Source of the DNA: a virus
Strand: one strand, 5' to 3'
IMG/VR virus record: IMGVR_UViG_3300008267_000462
Span: 1 to 26,090 of that record
DNA length: 26,090 nucleotides
The position numbers and the translations under genes were made by a program. Under the pieces are notes generated by a model. The model was not told where the DNA came from, searched no databases, and saw only the letters and a list, made by a program, of their open reading frames with translations. This document shows, one piece after another, positions 72 through 5,572 of the stretch; within the stretch, counting starts at the first letter, position 1, and each line of letters opens with the position of its first letter.

Positions 72-100
72 AACGGCTTCATAACCCGTTTTTATCTTTT
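72..100 (+). terminator. weak terminator-like hairpin after the tRNA-like fragment
   Basis: AACGG (72-76) pairs with CCGTT (86-90) around a 9-nt loop and runs into a T-rich tail (89-100). The stem is only 5 bp, so termination here is a guess. The T-rich tail is also the left end of the repeat that recurs at 408 and 791, where this hairpin is absent. Confidence 0.3.
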
Positions 101-115
101 AATTATACACCTGTG

Positions 116-134
116 AGCTCGGTTTATCCGGGCT
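116..134 (+). terminator. hairpin of repeat copy 1
   Basis: AGCTCGG (116-122) pairs with CCGGGCT (128-134) around loop TTTAT, giving 7 pairs with one G-U, followed by TTCGGGG. Compared with copies 2 and 3, the loop-closing pair is G-C instead of A-U, so both sides of the stem changed together. The tail has only two or three T residues, so it may be a weak terminator, a processing or stability element, or an attenuator. Confidence 0.5.
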
Positions 135-168
135 TTCGGGGTCGGTGGGAATATGGAGCCAATAACCC

Positions 169-196
169 GGTTCGTATATTAAACCATAATTTAAAA
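169..196 (+). promoter_or_regulatory. promoter-like block in repeat copy 1
   Basis: GGTTCGTATATT, then 6 nt, then ATAATTTAAAA. The same arrangement occurs at 487-514 and, outside the repeat, at 2688-2715. Each case is just upstream of a gene and after a terminator-like hairpin or a gap, which suggests a promoter. The factor that reads it is not known from sequence. Confidence 0.45.
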
Positions 197-204
197 TGAG
201 TGAT

Positions 205-399
205 ATGAAATTGATTCGAGAGTTTACCTGTGATTTAACCGGAGTGGAGTGTGTAATAGTGGAGAACCACTTCGGTGAGGAGGTATGTAATACCAAAGCC
301 GAATACCTAGAAATATTATCTAATGTGGAGTATGATGATAAACAGCTTAGGAGCGAACAGGGTGATTGGTGGGGTGATGACGATGAGTGGTTTAAATAG
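205..399 (+). CDS. small acidic protein of unknown function (cassette gene 1)
   Basis: 64 residues, starting MKLIREFTCDLTGVEC and ending in a strongly acidic, Trp-rich tail (GDWWGDDDEWFK). I do not recognise the family. I prefer the ATG at 205 to the in-frame ATG at 196, because aligning the upstream repeat puts 205 exactly at the start codon of the gene behind copy 2 (523), where the base corresponding to 196 is part of a non-start codon. It has no membrane segment or signal peptide. It lies between two repeat copies, so it looks like an exchangeable accessory cassette. A role in host takeover or anti-defence would fit its size, acidity and setting, but nothing in the sequence shows it. The gene is richer in G+C than the structural genes. 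Confidence 0.65.
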   Translation: MKLIREFTCDLTGVECVIVENHFGEEVCNTKAEYLEILSNVEYDDKQLRSEQGDWWGDDDEWFK

Positions 400-434
400 G
401 CAACAATTTTATCTTTTAATTATACGCCCTGTGG

Positions 435-452
435 AGCCCGAGCAATCGGGCT
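435..452 (+). terminator. GCAA-loop hairpin of repeat copy 2
   Basis: AGCCCGA (435-441) and TCGGGCT (446-452) form a perfect 7-bp stem closed by the GNRA-type tetraloop GCAA. TTTTGGGG follows. It stands just downstream of the gene at 205-399, where a terminator is expected. The U tract is only four bases long. Confidence 0.55.
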
Positions 453-486
453 TTTGGGGTCGGTGGGAATATGGAGCCAATAACCC

Positions 487-514
487 GGTTCGTATATTGA
501 GTTATAATTTAAAA
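487..514 (+). promoter_or_regulatory. promoter-like block in repeat copy 2
   Basis: GGTTCGTATATT, then GAGT, then TATAATTTAAAA, which contains an exact TATAAT. It ends 8 bases before the ATG at 523. The homologous blocks at 169-196 and 2688-2715 also precede genes. Copy 3 of the repeat has lost this block. Confidence 0.45.
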
Positions 515-522
515 CGAGACAT

Positions 523-780
523 ATGATTAAAGTTGATTTTACAGTGAGCAGATTAGATGGTACAGTGGTTAAGACATACTCCCTAGACCTAGAGCCAAGC
601 AACATATTAGACACACTTGAGGAGGCAAGACAAGTATGGGATGAGTACCATGTGAGAGCCAAAAGTGATAACCCGATTGCTCCATTTGAGGTATTTAAGA
701 CCAAGACATACAAGCAAGAAATGATGGAGCGCCAGTACCTACTTGACATGCACGACGAGTGCTGTGGGGAGGATTGGTGA
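523..780 (+). CDS. small protein of unknown function (cassette gene 2)
   Basis: 85 residues, beginning MIKVDFTVSRLDGTVVKTYS. It has a likely beta N-terminal part (1-22), a central acidic helix rich in Glu and Leu (about 24-46) and a charged helical C-terminus ending CCGEDW with paired cysteines. I do not recognise it. It has no transmembrane segment. The start follows the repeat-encoded ACATATGA context. It sits between repeat copies 2 and 3 and differs in sequence from cassette gene 1, although both have acidic, Trp-ending C-termini. Composition (about 45% G+C by eye) differs from the AT-rich virion genes, suggesting separate acquisition. Function is unknown; an accessory or host-interaction role is inferred from context only. 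Confidence 0.7.
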   Translation: MIKVDFTVSRLDGTVVKTYSLDLEPSNILDTLEEARQVWDEYHVRAKSDNPIAPFEVFKTKTYKQEMMERQYLLDMHDECCGEDW

Positions 781-790
781 CCCAAACCAG

Positions 791-859
791 TTTATCTTTT
801 AATTATACGCCCCTTGAGCCCGAGCAATCGGGCTTTCGGGGTGCAAAAAACAGACACAT
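791..859 (+). repeat. cassette repeat, copy 3 (internally deleted)
   Basis: Starts 10 bases after the stop of the gene at 523-780. The left block and hairpin (817-834) match copy 2 almost exactly through CGGGGT. The next bases then correspond to the far right end of the element (AAAACAGACACATATGA against AAAACGAGACATATGA in copy 2). About 55 bp, including the promoter-like block, are missing. This looks like an internal deletion. Confidence 0.8.
817..834 (+). terminator. GCAA-loop hairpin of repeat copy 3
   Basis: AGCCCGA (817-823) and TCGGGCT (828-834) with loop GCAA, the same stem-loop as copy 2, followed by TTCGGGG. It lies 36 nt after the stop codon of the gene at 523-780 and 26 nt before the next small gene. 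Confidence 0.55.
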
Positions 860-1024
860 ATGACAGCTTATACGTTTATCCAATTGAATCAATCGCGCAT
901 CCAAAATGTAGATGGGTGCCTAACCGCTGAGGCCAATATTACCGTTATGGAGCCAAATGGCCGCCTGGCTTTTTACTACTTTGAGGGTGGCCAATTGGTG
1001 GGCTCCAAGATCCAAGGTCTGTGA
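860..1024 (+). CDS. 54-residue protein of unknown function (cassette gene 3)
   Basis: An open frame of 54 codons beginning MTAYTFIQLNQSRIQNVDGC and ending GGQLVGSKIQGL, with stop TGA at 1022-1024. The residue pattern (NITVMEPNGRLAFYYFEGGQ) suggests a small beta sheet. I do not recognise a family. The main evidence that it is real is its start codon, which falls at the same point after the repeat (ACATATGA) as in the two preceding cassettes. Unlike them it lacks the promoter-like block, so it either depends on read-through past the hairpin or is poorly expressed. Base composition is close to 50% G+C, clearly unlike the virion genes. Its last codons run into the tandem-repeat tract at 1017-1062. 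Confidence 0.5.
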   Translation: MTAYTFIQLNQSRIQNVDGCLTAEANITVMEPNGRLAFYYFEGGQLVGSKIQGL

Positions 1025-3449: not shown

Positions 3450-3902
3450 ATGAAACGCATTACACAAGAAGAATCAAAACAGTTTATACCATGTAGTGAG
3501 GATTATGCAAATAATCCTCCTTCATATTTTACTGTGGTTGAACAAGAAGATGGATGGGATAAAATAACGTATTACACGGGTAAAAAACGCGGTCTATTTT
3601 TTGGCCGCGAGGGTGATGAATGGGTGTATATACTTACAAATCCTGCGATACCCGAAATGATTAAAATAGGATATACTACAAGTGATCCCCACACTAGAGC
3701 AGAACAAGTTTCTCGTGGGACTGGGGTTCCAATGGGTTATGAGGTTGCTTGGGCTTATAAATGTTATAAAGGGGAACGTATTGAAAAAGAAGTTCATAAA
3801 TATTTTAAAAAACAACGTGTAAGTCCTACTCGTGAGTTTTTTAGAGTTACACTTGATGAGGCAAAACAAATTATTGAACAAATAGGAGGAAAATATGTCT
3901 AG
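3450..3902 (+). CDS. GIY-YIG family protein of the T5orf172/MUG113 type
   Basis: 150 residues. The nuclease-like domain covers about 56-145: VYIL (59-62) stands for the GIY strand, IKIGYTT (71-77) for the YIG strand, then R83, an E-x-x-x-H pair in the helix IEKEVHKYFK (111-120) and REFF (128-131), the closing signature of T5orf172/MUG113 domains. Residues 1-55 are a separate N-terminal part without a recognised fold. Family members are putative single-strand or structure-specific nucleases, common in phages and sometimes mobile. Its start has an AAATAAAGGTCATG context like the gene at 2742. The stop overlaps the next gene by 8 bases. Confidence 0.75.
   Translation: MKRITQEESKQFIPCSEDYANNPPSYFTVVEQEDGWDKITYYTGKKRGLFFGREGDEWVYILTNPAIPEMIKIGYTTSDPHTRAEQVSRGTGVPMGYEVAWAYKCYKGERIEKEVHKYFKKQRVSPTREFFRVTLDEAKQIIEQIGGKYV
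3886..3891 (+). promoter_or_regulatory. consensus Shine-Dalgarno site AGGAGG
   Basis: AGGAGG lies 3 bases upstream of the ATG at 3895, inside the end of the preceding gene. It is the only perfect site I noticed. Most starts in the window have only A-rich leaders or weak AAGG motifs. Confidence 0.6.
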
Positions 3903-4777: not shown

Positions 4778-5572
4778 ATGAATCTTACCGCCGAACAAAT
4801 CCAAGAAAATTGGGATGCATTGATGGGATATATTAATGAATATATTTCCGAACCACGTAAAGAAAAATTGTTAGAATTTTATAATCAATATTCTGAACGT
4901 TTGATGTTAATGCCTGCTGCGCATAAAAAAGAATATCACAATGCTTTTCCCGGAGGATATGTAGAACATGTTTTACGCGTTATTCGATGTGCTATTAAAC
5001 AGGCTGAATTGTGGGAATCTGAAGGTTGTGATATGGCTACATTTACAACTGAAGAACTTGTATTTTCTGCTTTAAATCATGATTTAGGTAAAATGGGAGA
5101 TGAAAATGAGGAATCATATATCCCTCAAACTGATAATTGGAGAAAGGAAAAATTAGGAGAAGATTACATGTTTAATACTAAAGTCCCATTTTCATCTGTC
5201 CCTGATAGAGGTTTATTTATGCTCCAATCACATGGTATTCAGTATACATTTAATGAAATGATTGCTATCCAAACACATGATGGTTTATATGATGAGGCAA
5301 ATAAGAAATACCTTCTTAATTTTATGCCAGAACAAAAACCAAGAACATCTTTACCTTTTATCCTCCATCAGGCCGATTTAATGGCAGCACGTATCGAATT
5401 TGAACGTGAATGGTTACCTAAGTTAAAAGAAGGTAAAAAGTCCGTGGATAACGCAAAAGGGAATTTTACATTAGGGAACAAACCCAACACATCAAAGAAA
5501 ACTTCAACGAAAACTAAAGCATTAGGTTCGTTTAAAAGTGAAGGTTTAAAAAACATATTTGACAGTTTATGA
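4778..5572 (+). CDS. HD-domain phosphohydrolase
   Basis: 264 residues. The HD superfamily signature is present: H54 (EYHNAFPGG), H64 (VEHVLRV), the H101-D102 pair in ALNHDLGKMG, H152 (QSHG), H167-D168 (QTHDG) and D200 (LHQADLMAAR). These residues bind metal in phosphohydrolases acting on nucleotides or cyclic nucleotides. From about 225 onward there is a Lys/Ser/Thr-rich tail ending GLKNIFDSL, a short hydrophobic end motif that loosely resembles clamp-binding peptides of phage replication proteins. Related HD proteins are frequent in marine T4-like phages. The substrate is unknown; a dNTPase or an alarmone or cyclic-nucleotide hydrolase are options. It overlaps the next gene as ATGA. Confidence 0.78.
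   Translation: MNLTAEQIQENWDALMGYINEYISEPRKEKLLEFYNQYSERLMLMPAAHKKEYHNAFPGGYVEHVLRVIRCAIKQAELWESEGCDMATFTTEELVFSALNHDLGKMGDENEESYIPQTDNWRKEKLGEDYMFNTKVPFSSVPDRGLFMLQSHGIQYTFNEMIAIQTHDGLYDEANKKYLLNFMPEQKPRTSLPFILHQADLMAARIEFEREWLPKLKEGKKSVDNAKGNFTLGNKPNTSKKTSTKTKALGSFKSEGLKNIFDSL

Follow-up and report, generated by a model that had tools for sequence, protein, structure and literature searches.

Here, we describe a locus in an uncultured phage at which small genes are probably exchanged as cassettes. The window, i.e., the whole stretch of DNA that was analyzed, is a single IMG/VR contig of 26,090 bases that starts at position 1 of its record. We consider it likely that the locus near its left end is a cargo-exchange site similar to the promoter early stem-loops (PeSLs) of T4-type phages and that it marks the border between small genes and structural genes in a group of Immutovirus-related myophages. 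According to this model, ORF3, together with a conserved RNA hairpin at its translation start (hairpin A), would be the fixed anchor, and cassettes consisting of hairpin A, a promoter-like block (B) and a small gene would accumulate in a slot upstream of this anchor. The repeated A and B parts probably serve as sites of homologous or near-homologous recombination through which cassettes are gained and lost, so that the cassette set would differ from genome to genome and most cargo genes would have a promoter of their own. Hairpin A would act on the mRNA rather than as an efficient terminator, while the cargo may serve in host interaction. The model builds on features read from the sequence, i.e., the repeats, the anchor, the variable slot, a conflict between gene trees, the identity between element copies, covariation in the hairpin and selection on ORF2 and ORF3.

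The initial annotation had described a repeat preceding three unrelated small genes. A blastn search of the 26-kb record with the second copy (405-526) as the query bore this out and identified copy 1 at 90-208 (86% identity to copy 2, E 5.8e-34) and copy 3 at 791-842 (92% identity, E 7.3e-17), which comprises only the first 56 bases of the element and lacks its second half; no further copies were found within the record. The three genes behind these copies are mutually unrelated. In an ungapped alignment, 129-208 is 90% identical to 447-526. The element is a composite of part A, which comprises a left arm (TTTATCTTTTAATTATAC, referred to as aL) and a two-tier GC hairpin (AGCCCGA-GCAA-TCGGGCT within CCCC/GGGG), and part B, the promoter-like block. 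On the plus strand, copy 1 consists of aL at 91-108, the hairpin at 109-143 (from sequence, alignment and folding) and block B at 148-195, with GGAATA at 148-153, TTCGTATATT at 171-180 and then CATAATTTAAAA. In copy 2, aL is at 408-425, the hairpin at 426-460 and block B with the leader at 466-522 (GGAATA at 466-471, TTCGTATATT at 489-498), while copy 3 has aL at 791-808 and the hairpin at 809-843 immediately ahead of ORF3 but has no promoter block. As initially noted, the region is richer in G+C, with 39-53% in the first 1.2 kb versus 25-41% (mostly near 31%) beyond. An exact 24-mer of the element spacer had no match in viral contigs, and a DNA-level search in phages gave no match.

ORF1 (205-399, plus strand) encodes 64 aa from the ATG at 205, although its first ATG is at 196. 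Because the ATG at 205 lies ~20 nt past the [T/C]ATAA motif, a spacing typical of 213 promoter sites, and aligns with the start of ORF2 at 523 in copy 2, we suggest that 205 is most likely the start codon. The claim that each gene's ATG falls at the same point of the element applies to ORF2 and to the second in-frame ATG of ORF1, not to its first; it does not extend to copy 3, in which the promoter block is missing and the ATG of ORF3 is located 16 nt past the outer stem. We found no relatives of ORF1, and this frame could have arisen by chance. In contrast, relatives were identified in 21 viral contigs for ORF2 (523-780, plus strand, 85 aa) and in 37 for ORF3 (860-1024, plus strand, 54-55 aa). 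AlphaFold models of both proteins are confident and predict a bb-a-bb-a fold for ORF2 (pLDDT 92) and a helix plus four strands for ORF3 (pLDDT 94). The median dN/dS (Nei-Gojobori), calculated after leaving out the many pairs saturated at synonymous sites, is 0.24 among 16 ORF2 sequences and 0.21 among 22 ORF3 sequences. These values indicate purifying selection on both genes, and the refuting outcome named in the initial annotation, frames without such selection, did not occur for them.

The initial annotation also regarded the cargo as good candidates for host-takeover or anti-defense functions, and our searches did not demonstrate such roles. Neither ORF2 nor ORF3 matched anything in named phages, and ORF2 was not found in bacterial and archaeal genomes. 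Pfam and PHROGs searches with the three ORFs and ten cargo proteins returned nothing informative, with the exception of phrog_12728, a family of unknown function, for the L048 cargo. The best PDB match to the predicted ORF2 fold is T4 Dmd (5hy3_B, rank 1), an antitoxin against RnlA and LsoA; this match is weak (E 0.021, Z 6.4, 57 residues, 2.1 A), RB69 Dmd (5i8j) scored Z 6.2 in the fold search, no match fell below E 0.001, and Dmd was only rank 11 among viral models. Moreover, the fold is small and common to many small phage proteins. At the sequence level, ORF2 showed no relationship to T4 or RB69 Dmd (hhalign probability 0.14%), a profile search of PDB sequences with ORF2 did not recover Dmd, and a comparison with Dmd and TifA gave nothing. 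We therefore treat the likeness to Dmd as a weak lead and not as an assignment. For ORF3, the fold search gave no clear match; BLIP, OsmE and the immunity protein BtiO scored Z 5.2-5.7, which is within the described noise of the tool.

Reading the architecture in about 38 related IMG/VR contigs supported the idea of a modular array with swappable cargo, including the prediction that related phages carry further copies with different genes behind them. Hairpin A is followed by ORF3, a conserved noncoding tract and structural genes, and the variable slot lies upstream. The slot is empty in L022, L035 and L049, as it is in L043, where two tandem copies of A enclose no gene. It holds only ORF2 in L027, L031, L042, L047 and others, and ORF2 plus an unrelated gene in the window (64 aa), L040 (89 aa), L029 (141 aa) and L034 (65 aa). 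Other genes occupy it in L023 (three), L036 (four), L048 (one) and L055 (one), while ORF3 itself is replaced in L011/L066. Hence, gene content is not fixed among relatives, contrary to the refuting outcome named in the initial annotation. Some slot families also occur outside the slot: the MMLAIA family is in the slot in L034 and upstream in L023 and L053, the MKKLMMI family is in the slot in L048/L055 and upstream in L053, and the MTTEELV type is both in the slot and downstream in L026 and upstream in L066. In most relatives, a small repeat protein of the GRPVN..SxRQxRLxEL type is encoded just upstream of the array (L011 4262-4594 and equivalents). In the more distant phages L012 and L013 (~4780-5320), ORF2 occurs without hairpin A, and promoters of the type TTGACA..TTATCTTT replace block B.

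Comparisons between genomes gave two signs of recombination at the slot. First, the four proteins encoded downstream of the array are closest to those of L022, L023 and L024 (83-94%), as is ORF3 (76-87%); L022 and L023 lack ORF2, and the ORF2 of the window is closest to that of L040 (85%), whose ORF3 is only 56% identical. Second, the segment comprising the hairpin end, the spacer and the promoter box is 98% identical between copies 1 and 2 but at most 84% identical to that of any other genome, which argues for recent duplication or within-genome homogenization of these copies. The exact mechanism is something that we infer. Separately, the window encodes a T5orf172/MUG113 domain protein at 3450-3902 (Pfam E 3e-17), and two versions of this protein, ~70-90% or ~42-51% identical to that of the window, alternate among relatives, which suggests exchange at this gene as well.

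Block B has the anatomy of a promoter and is probably active as such. A total of 213 distinct B sites across the relatives share GGAATA, TTCGTATATT and TATAAWTAAAA; GGAATA is located ~21 bases ahead of TATATT, followed by TTCGTATATT, 4-5 bases and TATAAWTAAAA, and the ATG is usually 19-21 bases past the latter. B precedes nearly every small gene in the related phages and is thus phage-wide, with only part A being special to the array site. The element had been described as one control element of the strip; this fits the hairpin half, which is specific and belongs to the leader of ORF3, and does not fit the promoter half. Each genome carries the composite of hairpin A and B only 1-2 times, but B by itself occurs at high density in the plastic region; recombination may therefore act on B and not on the complete element.

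The two-tier hairpin ahead of ORF3 folds in nearly all genomes. Among 24 distinct hairpin sequences, 90% of cells pair, and pairing falls to 55-65% if the partner is slid by one; six of the 12 pairs show changes on both sides, with 22 such cells versus 5.8 in shuffles. Because the automatic alignment misplaced the outer stem in some rows, this stem was tested by exchanging partners between genomes, and its own partners bind better than swapped ones (permutation p 0.0011). Altogether, these comparisons show that hairpin A covaries. The ATG of ORF3 is located 8-10 bases past the inner stem in most genomes and 23-27 bases past it in the group to which the window belongs.

A simple explanation for the arrangement would be that the hairpin ends the upstream transcript and B starts the next one, with no role in exchange and with the cargo differences reflecting ordinary phage gene turnover. 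The position of the hairpin after the tRNA-like element (see below) and after ORF2, ahead of the next promoter, is consistent with this idea, as is the presence of B ahead of almost all small genes. However, a terminator scan found no standard terminator at the hairpins of the window, which are followed by only 2-4 T and then GG without a U-run. In addition, in L052, L053, L057 and L058 the hairpin is located between the previous stop codon and the ATG of ORF3 with no B block between them; because no promoter separates the hairpin from the ATG, it must be read through in these genomes, which weakens a terminator-only function. The homogenization of copies within a genome and the tree conflict at the slot point to recombination instead. 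We therefore regard this explanation as possible but improbable, and the sequence indicates that hairpin A is not a normal terminator. The best-supported reading is that it is an mRNA element involved in translation initiation, processing or stability of the ORF3 transcript. Because the hairpins in copies 1 and 2 stand upstream of the promoter, these would be either leftovers of duplication or elements acting on the upstream transcript.

Its location directly at the ATG of ORF3 together with its covariation could also be explained if the ORF3 protein, which is predicted to be small and compact, binds hairpin A to repress its own translation and the duplicated A copies are by-products. We consider such autoregulation unlikely: L011/L066 retain the hairpin although ORF3 is replaced, the hairpins of copies 1 and 2 would be absent from the cargo mRNA, and the ORF3 fold search gave no clear match hinting at RNA binding.

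The small-gene mRNAs of the phage share a leader consensus, GTATAATTAAAAAGATAA, whose reverse complement is the left arm aL. We analyzed 29 aL copies, all from genomes that contain three or more B sites, and found that 21 have exact runs of 12-19 nt complementary to leaders of the same genome, with 12 of the 29 reaching at least 13 nt. When 1676 random 30-mers of these genomes were compared in this way, 0.18% of them reached 12 nt and none 13 nt. In a pattern search of whole records, leaders were found in one orientation, and aL was the main match in the opposite orientation apart from a few strays. This complementarity may reflect an antisense RNA, an inverted DNA site or an old inversion. 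In the first case, an RNA comprising aL and the hairpin, derived from the end of the tRNA-like element/ORF2 transcript, would pair with many small-gene leaders (GUAUAAUUAAAAAGAUAA) and shut down these mRNAs at the switch to late genes. Besides the complementary runs and the orientation of aL in leader-rich genomes, the order of hairpin, single-stranded seed and hairpin is the layout of many small RNAs. We nevertheless regard such a device as quite doubtful: aL and the leader are nearly invariant, making covariation uninformative, an inverted DNA binding site would look alike, and L052, L053, L054, L057 and L058 lack aL ahead of ORF3.

We also considered whether aL and the promoter leader are the terminal inverted repeats of a tiny mobile element that carries cargo by transposition, given that the full element ends on the right with an inverted copy of its left arm. 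We dropped this idea as highly improbable: the right arm is merely the ubiquitous promoter leader and is missing from copy 3 and most ORF3 copies, neither a transposase nor a target-site duplication was seen, and the copies are confined to one locus.

The initial annotation placed a tRNA-like fragment beside the array. An acceptor stem (GACCAAG/TTTGGTC, 7/7 pairs) and a T-arm (loop TTCGAAT) joined by a short connector are indeed present at 23-70 on the plus strand; this minihelix of 48 bases, without a D or anticodon arm, is not simply a tRNA cut by the contig end. It is followed at 73-93 (plus strand) by a small terminator-like hairpin (ACGG/CCGT, then TTTT), and this motif recurs in L004, L018, L019 and L020, where GC arms flank CTTCATAA. 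In many relatives, tRNA-like elements lie directly ahead of the first A, with the anticodon region missing or replaced, and in L012 such an element lies directly ahead of ORF2. The acceptor and T-arm stems change together between genomes (GTCAGG/CCTGAC, GGTCAT/ATGACC, GGAGTG/CACTCC, GACCAAG/TTTGGTC). The elements are very variable in length (L040 631-758; L032 1556-1658; L031 5422-5547; L022 5766-5845; L055 171-239; L042 47-89), and the distance from the acceptor start to the T-loop is 23-130 bases, compared with 53 bases in a standard tRNA. With an insert for the anticodon arm, those in L032 (44.7 bits), L055 (42.1), L018 (41.7), L040 (39.9), L005 (33.9) and L007 (31.7) exceed the Rfam tRNA gathering score. 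In the window, Rfam gave no hit at gathering and did not find the minihelix on the plus strand; a weak minus-strand tRNA match at 39-112 was below the threshold. ARAGORN with default settings found no complete cloverleaf in the window or in L004-L017, and with introns allowed it matched only L004 and L005. L029 (~4915-5010) and L055 (~245-335), two otherwise different genomes, share a structured segment between two tRNA-like elements (AACCGGGTTAGGCTCCGG..CCAAGCC..GGGTCTGCAGGCCC); in this segment, AATCC/GGATT is replaced by AACCC/GGGTT, which is a compensatory change.

The tRNA-like elements are possibly processing signals or decoys. Given the established minimal substrates of RNase P and RNase Z, these enzymes could cut such a shape, and the cut would then define where the A-ORF3 mRNA begins at its 5' end. 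Extending this, we speculate about an RNA switch in which the tRNA-shaped minihelix, possibly cut by host RNase P/RNase Z, releases a short RNA of aL and the hairpin. By pairing of its single-stranded arm with the leader that dozens of early mRNAs have in common, this RNA would silence these mRNAs as late genes start, and the duplicated copies would double as recombination sites for new cargo; we regard this scenario as a long shot.

PeSLs are reportedly the subject of studies by Arbiol et al. (2010), on T4-type phages, and by Comeau et al. (2014), whose paper is said to carry 'Composite conserved promoter-terminator motifs' in its title. In the passages on PeSLs in PMC4503421 and PMC3950731, the gene content at these elements is described as shuffled between relatives. 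Judged by such secondary descriptions, PeSL cassettes are the closest known kind, and the locus appears to work like a PeSL and is best called a variant. Similar to PeSLs, a conserved promoter beside a conserved stem-loop is repeated between small ORFs in a plastic region, and the genes between copies are shuffled among related phages. Unlike PeSLs, the locus belongs to a different phage lineage with a different promoter, its stem-loop is not a U-run terminator and must be transcribed through in four genomes, and the composite is not dense, with the stem-loop at one locus in 1-3 copies per genome. It also differs in the covarying hairpin at the start of the anchor gene, in an additional left arm that is complementary to the leader of the mRNAs and in the adjoining tRNA-like element. 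The comparison with moron loci made in the initial annotation was dropped, since the hairpins have no standard terminator and the genes are small early-type genes of large myophages, for which PeSLs are the better parallel. To our knowledge, described cassettes are not known to include a covarying hairpin, an arm complementary to the leader or a tRNA-like minihelix; all three are testable RNA features.

In the haloarchaeal virus HGTV-1, a motif with a TATA-box and an inverted repeat precedes many ORFs and was proposed to aid shuffling (PMC3950731). It resembles our element in combining a repeated promoter-like region with an inverted repeat; however, HGTV-1 is an archaeal virus and its motif precedes the majority of left-hand-side ORFs, whereas here a single slot is involved. 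The small genes in the T4 region that contains dmd (dmd-tifA-adfA) have been described as a possible anti-toxin island (PMC9391042). The likeness to this island consists of a small-gene cluster that changes by recombination and the Dmd-like best fold match of ORF2; in contrast, ORF2 lacks sequence similarity to Dmd or TifA. A comparable island in T4 carries anti-toxin genes. With this locus, PeSL-like gene shuffling would extend to a group of uncultured myophages that are relatives of a Flavobacterium phage. Hairpin A ahead of ORF3 offers a simple marker by which small, fast-changing phage genes can be collected from metagenomes.

The baseplate wedge protein is 45% identical to that of the Flavobacterium phage vB_FspM_immuto (Immutovirus), the closest named phage, and 44% to that of the Microcystis phage Mel-JY01; because these values are nearly equal, the host is not certain. 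The order of the T5orf172, phosphohydrolase and tail genes is the same in vB_FspM_immuto, and the same type of TTCGTATATT block precedes its small genes. It differs in that tblastn gave no match to ORF2 or ORF3 and in that, by eye, neither hairpin A nor a tRNA-like element was seen at the corresponding border.

Downstream of ORF3, the array is bounded by a conserved noncoding tract at 1070-1330, which contains GGCGGTATATATATGG and CCATGCGCGCC..GTCAATA as well as two CATCGA boxes (1199 and 1312). Across loci, GGCGGTATATATATGG is followed by CCAYGCGCGCC..GTCAATA and, in most, one or two CATCGA boxes, and CGGTATATATA-type and GTCAATA blocks occur together in 36 loci. The tract is possibly an origin or a control site of the late region. 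In L019 (5600-6100), L017 (1270-1900) and L008 (1330-1750), ORF3 and this tract are separated by low-complexity repeats of the GGTGACCCTGGAG/GGTATGAG type that extend over hundreds of bases.
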